The notes beneath the pieces were generated by a model. It searched no databases and was not told the DNA's origin. It was given only the letters and a program-made list of their open reading frames with translations. DNA of 64,000 bases from Pseudomonadota bacterium (GTDB lineage Bacteria; Pseudomonadota; Gammaproteobacteria; Burkholderiales; Chitinibacteraceae): the NCBI GenBank assembly GCA_018261735.1, contig JAGTRM010000016.1, forward strand, positions 1-64,000, in the 5' to 3' direction. Shown piece after piece: positions 49,086 through 59,427 of this stretch; the stretch's first letter is position 1; the number at the start of each line of letters is the position of its first letter. The position numbers and the translations under genes were made by a program.

Positions 49086-49376
49086 TTACTTTTTGAACCG
49101 GGAAACAGCCGATTCCACAGCTTCGCTGATCGCGCCCCAAGCCATATCCATCCCGGCGCGCATGTCTTCCCAGGCATTTCCGCTCGCATTTTGCAGCGCT
49201 TCAAGCTTTACTCGGGCCTCGATCTGCTTGTTGCGCAGCATCTCGATTTCTTCGCTGTATTTTGTCTTGAGCTCCGCTTCGGCCAAGGCCGATTGCACCA
49301 CCAGCCGGTCGATTTCGGCATTCCATTCATCCAGCTTGGCCTGCAATTTTTGAATATATTCTTCACGCGTACCCAT
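49086..49376 (-). CDS. Small coiled-coil stress protein (sll1863-like family)
   Basis: The 96-residue charged protein is nearly all coiled coil: MGTREEYIQKLQAKLDEWNA, a heptad region to about residue 70 with ARVKLEALQ, and the C-terminal AWEDMRAGMDMAWGAISEA. This pattern fits the sll1863-type family seen in many proteobacteria and tied to stress responses; the molecular role is unknown. The start at 49376 has GAGGAG upstream. It is a single gene divergent from the sensor kinase. Confidence 0.78.
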   Translation of the reverse strand: MGTREEYIQKLQAKLDEWNAEIDRLVVQSALAEAELKTKYSEEIEMLRNKQIEARVKLEALQNASGNAWEDMRAGMDMAWGAISEAVESAVSRFKK

Positions 49377-49611
49377 GGTTGCACTCCTCAAAAGGGTTAA
49401 ACGTTCGGCTCTGTTAACAGACACCCTCTTTATCACAGTAGTTCATGGAACTGCATGGCAGCAATGACAAAATCCGCCGATCGTGAAACCCTGCGAATCA
49501 GGGGATGCATTTGCCTATTTACGTTTTATTTACACTCCAGGCCAGAGTCTCTACGCCATTTTTGCCTGTTACCACCTACTGTTACACCATGCAGACAACC
49601 CGGAGCGGATC

Positions 49612-51129
49612 ATGTCCGATGCCTCACTAGAAATCGTCCGTCCAGCACTGCCCAAGGCAGCACGCTATGCCTTGGCCATCGGCGCCTGTGCGCTGGTCAC
49701 CCTGATCACGCTGCCTTTTCGCGACATGCTGGATCTCGCCAATGCCGTGATGCTGTTTTTGCTCGTGGTATTTCTGGTGGCCCTCAAGCTCGGGCGCGGA
49801 CCGGCGGTGCTGGCCGCTTTTTTGAGCGTGGCGCTGTTCGATTTCTTTCTGGTCCCGCCGCATTTCACCTTTGCCGTCAACGATGTTTTATACCTGATCA
49901 CCTTTGCCGTGATGCTGGCCATCGGCCTGCTGACCACCGAGCTCACCGCCAACTTGCAGGAAGAAGCCGAACGGGTGCGTCACCATGAACAGGAAACCCG
50001 GGATCTGTACGAACTGGCCCGCAGCCTGACCGGCGCCGCGACACTACTGCAGGTCACCGAGGCCATGCAGGCCTATTTGGTTCGCAGTGGCTTCCGTGCC
50101 CGCCTGTTCCTGTTGGACAACGCCAGGAAACTGGACACCCAAGGCTGTAGCGTGCTGGAAAAACAGCTGTTGAACCTTGCCATGGCCAATGCCGAAATGG
50201 TGACAGGGGAATCCGAAACCGCCAGCGCACCACCGCTCTTTCTGCCGCTCCAGGCGCCGATGTGCGTGCGTGGCGTGATGGCGGTTTATCCCGAAACCAC
50301 CACGCTGTCTCCGTCCGGCAACCGGCGCGAATTCTTCATGACGCTGGCCTCCCTGATCGCGATTGCCGTGGAGCGGCTGCACTATGTCGAGGTTGCGCAA
50401 AGAACCCAGATCCAGATGAGCGCGGAAAAATTGCGCAGCTCGGTGCTTTCCACGCTTTCGCACGATCTGCGCACGCCGCTGACCACGCTGGTCGGCCTCG
50501 CGGATACGCTGGCCGAAACTCCCGAGCTGCCCGCCTCCGCCCGCGATAACGCCAGCCTGATCCGTGACCAGTCGCAGTCCATGTGCAACCTCCTGACCAA
50601 CCTGCTCGATATGGCCCGCCTACAATCGGGCAAGGTGACCCTGCGCCGGGAATGGCAATTGTTCGAGGATGCCATCAGCGCCAGCCTGCACCTGCTGAAA
50701 CCCTCGCTGGGCGCACGCCCGCTCGTGGTCGAGCTGCAGAAAAACCTGCCGCTGGTGGAATTCGATGCCGTGCTGATCGAGCGGGTGCTGTGCAACCTGA
50801 TCGAGAACGCCGCCAAATATTCGGGGACCACTCAGCCGATCGAGATTCGTGCCTTTGTCGAAGAAAGCGAAGCCTGCATTGCGGTGTGCGACCACGGCAG
50901 CGGCTTCCCGGCCGGACAGATCGATCATCTGTTCGAGTTGTTTGAACGCGGTGAAGCAGAATCGGCCAAGCCCGGTGTCGGGCTGGGGCTGGCAATCTGC
51001 AAGGCCATCGTCGAGGCGCATGGCGGCCGCATCCACGCCGTCAACCAGGCCACGGGCGGCGCCTGCGTCACCGTGCGCTTGCCGCTGGGCGAAGCCCCGG
51101 TGATTGAAGAGGAAGAAGAACATGGCTGA
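49612..51129 (+). CDS. KdpD-like sensor histidine kinase lacking the N-terminal KdpD domain
   Basis: This 505-residue kinase has a DUF4118 membrane domain with four helices (about 15-115, including FLLVVFLVALKLGRGPAVLA and LFDFFLVPPHFTF), a GAF-like region (about 140-255), a HisKA dimerisation domain with His284 in SHDLRTP, and an ATPase domain with NLIENAAKYS and GVGLGLAICKAIVEAHGG. This equals the C-terminal part of KdpD; the KdpD sensor and universal stress domains are missing. Start at 49612 has GGAG six bases upstream. It overlaps the regulator gene and precedes kup, suggesting potassium sensing. Confidence 0.9.
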   Translation: MSDASLEIVRPALPKAARYALAIGACALVTLITLPFRDMLDLANAVMLFLLVVFLVALKLGRGPAVLAAFLSVALFDFFLVPPHFTFAVNDVLYLITFAVMLAIGLLTTELTANLQEEAERVRHHEQETRDLYELARSLTGAATLLQVTEAMQAYLVRSGFRARLFLLDNARKLDTQGCSVLEKQLLNLAMANAEMVTGESETASAPPLFLPLQAPMCVRGVMAVYPETTTLSPSGNRREFFMTLASLIAIAVERLHYVEVAQRTQIQMSAEKLRSSVLSTLSHDLRTPLTTLVGLADTLAETPELPASARDNASLIRDQSQSMCNLLTNLLDMARLQSGKVTLRREWQLFEDAISASLHLLKPSLGARPLVVELQKNLPLVEFDAVLIERVLCNLIENAAKYSGTTQPIEIRAFVEESEACIAVCDHGSGFPAGQIDHLFELFERGEAESAKPGVGLGLAICKAIVEAHGGRIHAVNQATGGACVTVRLPLGEAPVIEEEEEHG

Positions 51130-51811
51130 TTCGCCCATCAACATTCTGCTGATCGAAGACGAGCCGCATATCCGGCGCTTTGTGCGCGGCGCGCTGGAAG
51201 GCCAGGGCTGGAAGGTGGTCGAAGCTGAAACCGGCCAGCGCGGCCTGATCGATGCCGGCACCCGCCGCCCCGATCTCCTGGTGCTGGATCTGGGCCTGCC
51301 GGACATGGACGGCGTGGAGCTGATCCGCGATTTTCGCAGCTGGTCCGAAGCCCCGGTGCTGATTCTGTCCGCCCGCAGCGATGAAACCGACAAGATCGAG
51401 GCGCTGGATGCCGGTGCGGATGATTACCTGACCAAGCCGTTCGGTGTGGGCGAGCTCGTCGCGCGGGTGCGAGCGCTGATCCGGCGCCATATCCGCCAGC
51501 AGGAGGCCTCGCCCACGATCGCCTTCGGCCAGATCGCCGTCGATTTCTCCCGCCGCGAGGTGCTGCGCAACGGCGAACCCGTGCATCTGACTCCGATCGA
51601 GTACCGCCTGCTGACCGCACTGATCGCCAGCCAAGGCAAGGTCATCACCCACCGCAGCCTGATGCGCGAGGTCTGGGGACCGAACCATAGCGAAAGCAAC
51701 CACTACCTGCGCATCTACATGAGCCGGTTGCGCCAGAAGATCGAAGTCGATCCGGCCCAACCCCTTCATCTACTGACGATATCCGGTGTCGGTTACCGTT
51801 TCCAGCCCTGA
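51122..51811 (+). CDS. KdpE-like response regulator (OmpR/PhoB family)
   Basis: The 229-residue regulator has a receiver domain (NILLIEDEPHI, phosphoacceptor Asp56 in VLDLGLPDMDG, LSARSDE, TKPFGVGEL) and a winged-helix DNA-binding domain (HLTPIEYRLLTAL, YLRIYMSRLRQKIE, GVGYRFQP). It resembles KdpE, the activator of kdpFABC. The start overlaps the end of the kinase gene by eight bases. In this operon it would most simply control kup. Confidence 0.93.
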   Translation: MADSPINILLIEDEPHIRRFVRGALEGQGWKVVEAETGQRGLIDAGTRRPDLLVLDLGLPDMDGVELIRDFRSWSEAPVLILSARSDETDKIEALDAGADDYLTKPFGVGELVARVRALIRRHIRQQEASPTIAFGQIAVDFSRREVLRNGEPVHLTPIEYRLLTALIASQGKVITHRSLMREVWGPNHSESNHYLRIYMSRLRQKIEVDPAQPLHLLTISGVGYRFQP

Positions 51812-51827
51812 TTTTTCAAGGACGATC

Positions 51828-53705
51828 ATGAGCGAATCCCATCATAAAGGCCACACTTCCGCCCTCGCGCTGGCCGCGCTGGGCGTGGTTTACGGCGACA
51901 TCGGCACCAGCCCGCTTTACACCATCAAGGAAATATTCGCCAATCCACATTACCCGGTTCCGATCACGCACGACAACATCCTCGGCATGCTCTCCATCGT
52001 GCTCTGGTCACTGCTTATCGTGGTGGCACTGAAGTATGTCGTGTTCATCATGCGCGCCGACAACAAGGGTGAAGGCGGCATCATGGCACTGATGGCGCTG
52101 GTGCTGCACCACGCCAAAACCAAATCGCAGATCGCTTTCCTGATGATGCTCGGCCTGTTTGGCGCGGCGCTGTTCTACGGCGACAGCGTGATCACCCCGG
52201 CCATTTCCGTGCTTTCTGCCATCGAAGGCCTGGAAATCGCCACGCCGGCCTTCAAGCCCTATATCGTTCCGCTTTCGCTGTTCGTGCTGTTTATCCTGTT
52301 TATCGTGCAAAAGCACGGCACGGCGCGGATGGGCAGTTTTTTTGGCCCGGTGATGATCTTGTGGTTCGCCACCCTGGGCACACTGGGCATCATCGCCATC
52401 ACCCGGCAACCGCAAGTCCTGGAAGCGCTCAGCCCTCACCATGCACTGCGCTTCTTCCTGAGCAATCCGCTGCTCGGTTTTCTCTCGCTCGGCTCGTCCA
52501 TTCTGGCCGTCACGGGCGGCGAGGCACTGTATGCCGACATGGGCCACTTTGGCCGCAAACCGGTTCAAATTGCCTGGTTCGGTCTGGTATTGCCGGCGCT
52601 GGTGCTTAATTACTTCGGCCAGGGCGCATTGCTGCTCAGCGATCCGAAAGCCATCGCCAACCCGTTCTACCTGCTGGCGCCCAGCTGGGCACTGTATCCG
52701 ATGGTGATTTTGGCGACAGCCGCCACCATCATCGCTTCTCAAGCGGTGATTTCCGGCGCGTATTCGATGACCCGCCAGGCCATCCAGCTCGGCTATGCCC
52801 CGCGCATGGATATCCAGCACACTTCGAAAGATGAAATCGGCCAGATCTACCTGCCCGGCGTGAACTGGACGCTGATGTTCGCCGTGGCGATCCTGGTGGT
52901 CGGCTTTGGCTCATCCGGCAAACTGGCCGCTGCCTACGGCATCGCCGTGACCGGCACCATGGTCATCACCACCATCCTCGCCTTCATCGTCGCCCGCTAC
53001 CAGTGGCACTGGAGCAGACTGAAGTGCCTGCTGATCCTGGGTGGATTTCTGCTTGTGGACATCACCTACTTCAGTGCCAACGCCGTCAAGATCATTGACG
53101 GTGGCTGGTTCCCGCTGGCGCTGGGGCTGGTGGTTTTCCTGGTTATGACCACCTGGAAACGCGGCCGGGAACTTGTTCACGATCGTTTGGCTTCCGAGGG
53201 CATGCCGCTGGCGCAGTTCGTTGAAATCATGGCCCCGGCGGTTCCCCGGATACAGGGCACGGCGATTTTCATGACCTCCGATCTATCCAGCACACCGCAT
53301 GCGCTGCTGCACAGCCTCAAGCACTACAAGAGTTTGCACGAGCGCGTGATCATGCTGTCCGCAGAAACCACCGATATTCCGCATGTACCGCCGCAGGAAC
53401 GCGTGGCGGTCCAGCAGATCGGCGAGCAGTTTTACAAGGTCAAGATGGTCTTCGGCTTTATGGATGAACCCGATGTGCCCGCCGCGCTGGAATACTGCGC
53501 CGCACAAGGGCTGGAGCTGGACATGATGGATACTTCGTTCTTCCTCGGACGCGAAACGCTGATCCCGAAGGTCGGCGCGGGACTGATGATCCGCTGGCGC
53601 GAAAAGCTCTTCGTCACCATGTTCCGTAACGCCGGATCGGCCGCATCGTACTTCATGCTGCCGCCCAACCGGGTGGTTGAACTGGGTTCGCAGCTGGTGC
53701 TGTAA
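51828..53705 (+). CDS. kup: Potassium uptake protein Kup
   Basis: This 625-residue inner-membrane K+/H+ symporter starts MSESHHKGHTSALALAALGV and has the Kup hallmark GVVYGDIGTSPLYT, the GEGGIMALMALVL segment, GDSVITPAISVLSAIEG and about twelve membrane helices, followed by a soluble C-terminal domain. The start at 51828 follows AAGGA; 17 bases separate it from the regulator, so kinase, regulator and transporter likely form one operon. Confidence 0.96.
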   Translation: MSESHHKGHTSALALAALGVVYGDIGTSPLYTIKEIFANPHYPVPITHDNILGMLSIVLWSLLIVVALKYVVFIMRADNKGEGGIMALMALVLHHAKTKSQIAFLMMLGLFGAALFYGDSVITPAISVLSAIEGLEIATPAFKPYIVPLSLFVLFILFIVQKHGTARMGSFFGPVMILWFATLGTLGIIAITRQPQVLEALSPHHALRFFLSNPLLGFLSLGSSILAVTGGEALYADMGHFGRKPVQIAWFGLVLPALVLNYFGQGALLLSDPKAIANPFYLLAPSWALYPMVILATAATIIASQAVISGAYSMTRQAIQLGYAPRMDIQHTSKDEIGQIYLPGVNWTLMFAVAILVVGFGSSGKLAAAYGIAVTGTMVITTILAFIVARYQWHWSRLKCLLILGGFLLVDITYFSANAVKIIDGGWFPLALGLVVFLVMTTWKRGRELVHDRLASEGMPLAQFVEIMAPAVPRIQGTAIFMTSDLSSTPHALLHSLKHYKSLHERVIMLSAETTDIPHVPPQERVAVQQIGEQFYKVKMVFGFMDEPDVPAALEYCAAQGLELDMMDTSFFLGRETLIPKVGAGLMIRWREKLFVTMFRNAGSAASYFMLPPNRVVELGSQLVL

Positions 53706-58356: not shown

Positions 58357-59427
58357 TTACGCCAGCGCAGCTTCCACTTGCCGGCGCCCATCCGGCGTCG
58401 CCATCACCACGAGCACCAGCCCAGGGGCAAGCCGGAAATCATTCGCGGGGTTGAAGTGCCAGTTGGCGCCCTCGCGGATGGCGACCAGAATGAAATCCGC
58501 ACTTTCCAGCGCCAGCTCACCCAGCGAACAGGCAGAAAACGCCGTCGGCAACGGAATCTCTTCCATGCGGATATTGCGCTCGCTGCGCATCATGTCGTCC
58601 AGAATGCCCACCACGTGCGGGCGCACCATCATCGAGACAATGCGCAACCCGCCGGTGAAATCGGGCAGCACCACCGCATCCGCCCCGGCCTTGCGGATCT
58701 TGACCGAGTTCTGCACCTCGTGGCTGCGCGCCACGACGCGAACCTGCGGGTTCAGCTGCTTGGCGGTCAGCGACACCATCAGATTCTTGGCATCGTCGCT
58801 GATCACGGCAAACACGCCGGCGGCGCGCTCGATCCCGGCCAGCATCAACATGTCGTCGTCCGTGCCGTCGCCATGCAGCCAGAAAAGTCCCGGTTCCCGG
58901 CTGGCATGCTCCTGCAACACCAGGGAGTTGAATTCGATCACCACCACCTTGCGGCCGGTCACCATCAGTTCGCTGGCCACGTTGCGTCCGACCCGGCCAA
59001 AGCCGCAGACAATGAAATGGCCGTTGAGATTGTCGATCTGCTTCTGCATGCGCCGTCTCCGGAAACTGTGGTCAAGATCCGCCTCGAGGAAAAAGACGGA
59101 AAAACTGGTGAACAGAAAAGTAAGAGTACCGAAACCGCCGATCGAGATCAGGCCGACAAACAGCCGCATCCCGATGCCGTTGACCGGCACGACTTCGCCA
59201 TAGCCGACCGTGGTGACCGTGATGATGGTCATGTACAGCGCATCGGACAGGCTGCGCGGTTCCGGATCGGCCAGATAGAACCCTATCGTCCCGACCACCA
59301 TGAACCCGACCAGCACGATGGCTGCCATGGCAATCCGGTGCAGGATGCGCGTGAGCTGGTCCGAACGCTCCAGCTCGAACCTGCGCCTGAAAGGCGCCCG
59401 GACATAAGGGGGAATCTTGATTTTCAT
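58357..59427 (-). CDS. Ion channel with RCK (TrkA-N) domains, potassium-selective
   Basis: The 356-residue protein has two membrane helices (about 32-51 and 88-112) around a pore with the selectivity filter TTVGYGE (72-78), the mark of potassium channels. The cytosolic part has a TrkA-N Rossmann domain (HFIVCGFGRVGRN at 138-149) and a C-terminal TrkA-C-like domain. It resembles prokaryotic two-helix RCK channels such as MthK-type proteins. With kup and the Kdp-like pair it is the second potassium element in this region. Its stop lies 80 bases from the rubredoxin stop, convergent. Confidence 0.92.
   Translation of the reverse strand: MKIKIPPYVRAPFRRRFELERSDQLTRILHRIAMAAIVLVGFMVVGTIGFYLADPEPRSLSDALYMTIITVTTVGYGEVVPVNGIGMRLFVGLISIGGFGTLTFLFTSFSVFFLEADLDHSFRRRRMQKQIDNLNGHFIVCGFGRVGRNVASELMVTGRKVVVIEFNSLVLQEHASREPGLFWLHGDGTDDDMLMLAGIERAAGVFAVISDDAKNLMVSLTAKQLNPQVRVVARSHEVQNSVKIRKAGADAVVLPDFTGGLRIVSMMVRPHVVGILDDMMRSERNIRMEEIPLPTAFSACSLGELALESADFILVAIREGANWHFNPANDFRLAPGLVLVVMATPDGRRQVEAALA

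Follow-up and report, generated by a model that had tools for sequence, protein, structure and literature searches.

Why should a histidine kinase and a response regulator of the KdpD/KdpE kind, with a kinase that lacks the N-terminal half of KdpD, stand directly ahead of kup, the gene of a K+:H+ symporter, and not beside kdpFABC? The question is raised by a 64,000-nucleotide stretch of DNA (hereafter the window; positions 1 to 64,000 of contig JAGTRM010000016.1, assembly GCA_018261735.1) from a member of the Chitinibacteraceae whose nearest named relatives belong to Formivibrio. From sequence comparison, we propose that the three genes probably form an autoregulated K+ uptake cassette, in which a K+-sensing pair would induce its own operon and, with it, kup. 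The short KdpD-like kinase (49612..51129, forward strand; ATG at 49612, stop at 51129; 505 amino acids) consists of DUF4118, a linker, HisKA and HATPase_c. Its frame overlaps by eight bases that of a KdpE-family regulator of the OmpR/PhoB type (51122..51811, ATG at 51122; 229 amino acids), which is followed on the same strand, after a gap of 16 nucleotides, by kup (51828..53705, ATG at 51828). Relative to a sister genome, the ratio of nonsynonymous to synonymous substitution rates (dN/dS) was 0.042 for the kinase, 0.032 for the regulator and 0.065 for kup, which argues that the trio is more than a chance assembly; it is a tight operon under purifying selection.

Domain content of the kinase, the regulator and Kup

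An earlier inspection of this DNA (the sequence-only reading) had described a kinase that keeps DUF4118 and the kinase core but has no N-terminal KdpD and Usp domains, and had placed the pair before kup instead of kdpFABC. Both descriptions were borne out, and the gene limits given there hold. With E-values up to 0.001, Pfam matches of the kinase were DUF4118, HisKA and HATPase_c, while neither KdpD (PF02702, the serine kinase with Walker A and B motifs) nor Usp was matched. The GAF_3 match of the linker was weak (23.7 bits, against a cut-off of 27), and the GAF domain exceeded its cut-off in a short relative (L119, 41.1) and in the full-length KdpD of the same genome (39.5). Against the NCBIfam KdpD model PRK10490, the kinase reached 412.8 bits, with a cut-off of 1123, its alignment being confined to positions 402-893 of a profile of 895, that is, to the C-terminal half. 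Within that half, the phospho-acceptor histidine and the ATP-binding regions are conserved in an alignment of five short kinases, and the four-helix membrane region and the SHDLRTPLT box are kept in the alignment with E. coli KdpD. All six aligned kinases have an aspartate at the position of D424 of E. coli KdpD, a residue proposed to sense extracellular K+.

The regulator passed the equivalog cut-off of the NCBIfam KdpE model PRK10529 (334 bits, cut-off 325); the regulator of one trk-linked relative fell just below it, with 324.6 bits. It also keeps, by alignment, the residues matching R193, R200 and T215, which the accessible part of PMC3264566 names as DNA contacts of E. coli KdpE. Kup contains K_trans (PF02705) and K_trans_C (PF22776) at full length and exceeds the cut-off of TIGR00794 (600.4 against 539.6); under the stricter model PRK10745 it scored 796, with a cut-off of 883. 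These profile scores suggest a pair of the KdpDE kind, with a regulator that is KdpE by a curated cut-off, a kinase that fails the definition of a full KdpD, and a different output gene.

Recurrence of the gene order and of the upstream operator

Named genomes were scanned with the alignment of the five short kinases, and the best 80 loci of a longer list were retained, a set biased to near relatives. Judged against reference kinases of both kinds, 66 were short and 14 full. Among the short kinases with a visible regulator, the next gene was kup in 55/64 and trkH or trkA in 9/64 (two loci, L084 and L134, were left out of this count, as their contigs end before the regulator); TrkH and TrkA were checked with Pfam in one trk-linked locus. 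For the full KdpDs, kdp genes are visible upstream in 12/14, and kup comes next in 0/14; the remaining two (L143, L145) have no kdp gene upstream on their own strand, L145 having kdpA on the opposite strand. The synteny check in related genomes suggested with the sequence-only reading was therewith affirmative, with the kinase-regulator-kup order recurring in at least eight named betaproteobacterial families as well as in the scan described next.

Given the bias of the 80-locus set, 399 genomes drawn evenly from the order were also examined; both sets overlap in some genomes, and their counts are not additive. Short kinases were chosen here by open frame (below 600 amino acids, plus G101) among matches with E-values up to 1e-60. 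Left out of the counts were L172 and L173/L174 (all with a kinase truncated at the start of the contig, those of L173/L174 grouping with full KdpD), L170 (a kinase fragment) and G047 (a different kinase type). Among the 30 short pairs with readable N-terminus and surroundings, 22 precede kup, three adjoin kimA (upstream of the pair in L156 and L157, downstream in L164), one (L165) is followed by three fix-like genes and then kup, and near four (L159, L160, L161, L171) no K+ gene was found. The notion that a short pair always stands next to a K+ importer, which held in 64/64 cases of the first set, was therefore dropped, as it held in 26/30 here with L165 counted. The KimA assignment rests on the L156 protein, whose single match in the PDB was KimA (7e-59), and the other kimA genes were recognized by similarity to that protein. 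KdpB exceeded its family cut-off in 12/31 short-pair genomes and not in 19/31, so that a Kdp pump is often missing where the pair occurs. Taken together, the two sets indicate that the host genome shares a conserved arrangement and is not a lone oddity.

Some surroundings are worth recording in their own right. In L160, L165 and L171 the short pair precedes fixABC-like electron-transfer genes (the electron transfer flavoprotein (ETF) domain was checked in L160, the others being judged by eye), and in L156/L157 it lies between kimA and fixABC-like genes. In another branch of short pairs (L159:5304-8285, L161:3540-6614) the gene behind the pair is ferredoxin-reductase-like, and the stretch yielded no K+ gene. 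Moreover, one genome of the order (G227; L158:1163-12620, G227:C2) carries, one after another, kdpABC, a further gene, full KdpD, KdpE and kup, which contradicts the idea that full KdpD never occurs with kup; this arrangement is a possible intermediate.

Upstream of the window operon, a candidate KdpE-type operator, TTTACG-TTTTA-TTTACA, occupies 49518..49534 on the forward strand, 77 bp before the kinase start, and is an exact instance of TTTAYR-N5-TTTAYR; the half-sites given for E. coli KdpE in the accessible text of PMC3264566 are TTTATA-N5-TTTACA. The pattern was counted in 66 upstream regions, from the window and 65 further loci (L082 was left out, its upstream being too short). A score of at least 11/12 was reached in 64/66, compared to 0/66 on the reverse strand and 0.7/66 in shuffled sequences; the exceptions, L134 and L144, scored 10 and 9, and under a narrower first pattern L078 also scored 9. 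With the E. coli site as printed, 33/66 upstreams reached at least 10/12 (1.0 in shuffles, 0 on the reverse strand) and 65/66 at least 9/12 (5.7 in shuffles, 4 on the reverse strand). When the spacer was varied over 62 dereplicated upstreams, five bases gave 60 matches, three gave 47, seven gave 19, nine gave 7 and others 0-3; the high counts at other odd spacers are taken to arise from the T-run that the second half-site contains. All nine trk-linked operons scored 11 or 12. A TATAAT-like hexamer (at least 4/6) lies 10 bases past the operator in 40/64 relatives, compared to 0-7 at other offsets from 17 to 60, and the candidate -10 place of the window (49545..49550, forward strand) has this same offset. 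At such a fixed distance, the operator would cover the -35 region, like the site of an OmpR/PhoB-type activator.

Operons of kdp served as positive controls: those of the host genome (two sites), E. coli, L118 and L158 scored 11-12, and those of L106, L127, L128, L130 and L147, with short or cut upstreams, 7-10. Among kup genes unlinked to a pair (the second kup of the host and five others, E. coli included), 0/6 reached 10 on their own strand; the E. coli kup upstream scored 9/12 on its own strand and 10 on the other. The idea that the operator belongs to all versions of the pair had to be abandoned, since the KimA-linked L156, L157 and L164 scored 8-9, and L161 and L167 scored 8 and 7. Beyond the order, a scan of 369 genomes of the class yielded two with short kinase, regulator, kup and operator (L194, L195). 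In two further loci of the class (L196, L197), a full kdpD beside kdpABC is broken into several frames, and in L196 kdpB is also in two pieces. Other classes of the phylum gave 13 short-frame matches, of which 11 were read (L204-L214). All of these scored 8-9 for the operator, and no kup, trk or kimA match lay directly beside the pair, with the stretches of L204, L212, L213 and L214 ending at most 0.8 kb past the regulator; in L205, trkAH is about 2.3 kb from the pair.

Quick trees, without bootstrap and unrooted, united 84 short kinases of a 138-row alignment in a single group (SH-aLRT 100) to the exclusion of the full ones, and do not fix whether the N-terminal module was lost or gained. Inside that group, trk-linked kinases occupy two separate places (7 and 2 rows). 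A second kinase tree (77 rows), with more divergent members, placed all 26 full KdpDs, including that of E. coli, on one side of a branch (99), and a regulator tree (78 rows) showed the same short/full split (94, just below the starred level). As both trees split alike, the pair seems to be inherited together. A single clade of pair-linked Kups was not supported: the Kup tree needs five label changes and carries a long-branch warning.

Proposed mechanism and competing explanations

In the mechanism that we propose for the cassette, the short kinase, having kept the membrane and kinase parts of KdpD, would presumably sense K+ shortage as KdpD does and phosphorylate the KdpE-like regulator, which would bind the direct repeat upstream and activate the operon, the levels of kinase, regulator and Kup rising together. 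K+ would be the signal, activation rather than repression the response, and the set-point may lie at a higher K+ concentration than that of KdpDE, which would suit the lower affinity of Kup. According to the accessible part of PMC11018627, full KdpD inhibits KdpFABC at high K+, its N-terminal domain phosphorylating serine 162 of KdpB. The short kinase may lack this module because the target of the cassette is not KdpFABC; a cassette that yields Kup or Trk has no obvious use for a serine-kinase activity, and this would account for the missing module. Moreover, several truncated E. coli KdpDs answer K+ limitation and cannot repress at higher external K+, as far as the accessible text of PMC2714519 goes.

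Several points weigh against this mechanism. The same text of PMC2714519 holds the N-terminal domain to be necessary for full function of E. coli KdpD, and the window kinase has only a weak match to GAF, a domain proposed as one of the K+ sites. The four clade members without a K+ gene adjoin fix-like or ferredoxin-reductase-like genes, and the KimA-linked pairs have no operator. With regard to the operator itself, the family pattern was widened after these sequences had been seen; read backwards, it scores 11 in 6/66 upstreams and 10 in 49/66, and the E. coli form read backwards scores 10 in 10/66 and 9 in 44/66. These backward scores exceed those of shuffles owing to T-runs, so that spacing and offset are what matter. 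The -10 hexamer of the window is poor (GAGTCT, 2/6 to TATAAT). Finally, the seven exact sites of the host genome (two before kdpFABC, one at 49518 and four elsewhere) do not outnumber the hits of the backwards control (5+2, also seven), and only their positions are informative.

The main competing explanation arises from the other K+ systems of the host. The sequence-only reading had called for a search for kdpFABC elsewhere, which was fruitful: contig C47 carries kdpABC with a full KdpD (889 amino acids; KdpD, Usp, DUF4118, GAF, HisKA, HATPase_c) and KdpE, with 59, 70, 52, 49 and 58% identity to E. coli KdpA, B, C, D and E, respectively; KdpF was identified by eye. With this full pair in the same genome, control of kup by the KdpE of C47 is also possible. 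A second kup is present on another contig. No match to TrkH/KtrB was found in the host genome, which is 94% complete, so that such absences are provisional (the family was detected in 11/14 control genomes); likewise no KimA was matched, equally provisionally and in a search without positive control. As no TrkH was found, the host seems to depend on Kdp and two Kups to take up K+.

It is possible, if doubtful, that both pairs form a shared regulon with cross-talk, in which the kup operon would be driven (also) by the KdpE of C47, with the short pair adjusting both operons. The kdp and kup operators of the host belong to the same type and have related sequences equally far downstream (GAATCT and AAATCT behind the two kdp sites), and the two regulators are 58% identical, with a similar first receiver helix. 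In G227, moreover, kup after the full KdpDE has its own operator, a 12/12 site at L158:10644-10660 within the 77-nt gap before the kup frame. This explanation sits less well with the 19/31 short-pair genomes in which KdpB is below the cut-off, where the short pair probably stands alone, and with the trees, in which kinase and regulator are each separate from the full pair. The first half-site, mostly TTTAC in kup/trk operators and TTTAT in the kdp sites of the host, points the same way, but the reverse is seen in L158 and the argument is weak. The recurrent order, the operator and those 19/31 genomes together give strong comparative support to a control of kup by a dedicated two-component system, which the sequence-only reading had thought would be unusual.

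It is less likely that the short kinase reads another cue (turgor, salt, pH, membrane energization or redox) and that kup is raised in response to it. The kinase has no Usp domain and only a weak GAF, genes of the ETF/fix-like or ferredoxin-reductase-like kind are neighbors of some clade members, and a title among the references of PMC8886135 reports Kup to be the major system by which E. coli takes up K+ in hyperosmotic stress at low pH. Nevertheless, all partners seen in the 80-locus set import K+ and belong to two unrelated families, with kimA as a third in the order scan, and the membrane domain is that of KdpD. As for a decaying leftover of a kdp operon with kup as a chance neighbor, this is very improbable: the kinase does align with the C-terminal half of KdpD only, but its motifs are kept, arrangement and operator are conserved across families, the genome has its own kdp operon, and the low dN/dS of kinase and regulator is not a neutral pattern. 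A pseudogene or chance neighborhood was rejected on these grounds.

The K+-sensing cassette is accordingly the reading we retain for this locus. On a wider scale, we lean towards a lineage of KdpD/KdpE without serine kinase that would act in Betaproteobacteria as a transcriptional switch for 'housekeeping' K+ importers, re-plugged into Kup (mainly), Trk (at least twice) and KimA, with the operator kept before most kup/trk operons. If true, the architecture of KdpD tracks its target, the serine-kinase module staying with KdpB as partner and being absent with Kup, Trk and KimA, and low- to medium-affinity K+ uptake would not be constitutive in these bacteria.

Around these genes, a K+ channel-like protein, which had been noted at about 5 kb, was confirmed outside the operon, 4.65 kb beyond kup (58357..59427, reverse strand; Ion_trans_2, TrkA_N and TrkA_C). 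It is close to kup in the sister genome (G001, L035) too; none was seen in the 4.2 kb beyond kup in Formivibrio citricus (L036), a stretch that is perhaps too short. Upstream of the operator, 49086-49436 (reverse strand) encodes a protein of 115 amino acids with no Pfam family over its cut-off and only a sub-threshold coiled-coil match. On contig C47, the two KdpE-type sites before kdpFABC (L002:1781-1797 and 2081-2097, G000:C47) are 300 bp apart with similar sequence after each, perhaps a duplicated promoter.

Comparison with known systems

The window pair shares with the E. coli KdpD/KdpE-kdpFABC system a sensor with DUF4118, HisKA and HATPase_c, a regulator of the KdpE family, a K+ importer as neighbor and a similar operator. 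It differs in having no N-terminal KdpD and Usp domains and in lying upstream of kup, with a symporter as target, whereas KdpDE lies downstream of kdpFABC. E. coli Kup (TrkD) belongs to the same transporter family as the window Kup; its gene lies between ravA and rbsD, with no two-component genes within the 6 kb examined. In another genome (G047; L040, G047:C12), a DUF4118 kinase, a regulator and kup follow the same order as in the window, but the kinase is only 28% identical to that of the window and falls outside the short group on the 138-row tree; this is perhaps an independent joining.

The split KdpD of Deinococcus, as described in the accessible parts of PMC5716572 and PMC11018627, is similar in that a kinase chain without the N-terminal module has a response regulator in its own operon; there, a separate KdpD/Usp gene exists and the target is kdp, while here the neighbor is kup. 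A split KdpD with its missing half elsewhere was ruled out for the host, in which the single PF02702 match lies inside the full KdpD. The survey in PMC11018627, in its accessible text, addressed species with a Kdp pump and counted full-length KdpD alone where present, so that a paralogue like the window kinase would have escaped it. In the open-access papers that were searched, no description was found of a KdpD-like pair sharing an operon with kup or trk, which is weak evidence of novelty.

The accessible part of PMC5716572 describes Kup and Trk of E. coli as constitutive, and Kdp as inducible. The arrangement reported here makes that assumption testable in Formivibrio citricus (L069), Azonexus hydrophilus, which has the trk version (L104/L119), Propionivibrio (L073/L105) and Noviherbaspirillum (L075). 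In addition, the short kinases offer natural cases in which the serine-kinase module is absent where KdpB is not the partner, and they bear in this way on the 2024 result on KdpD, as far as it is given in the accessible text of PMC11018627.

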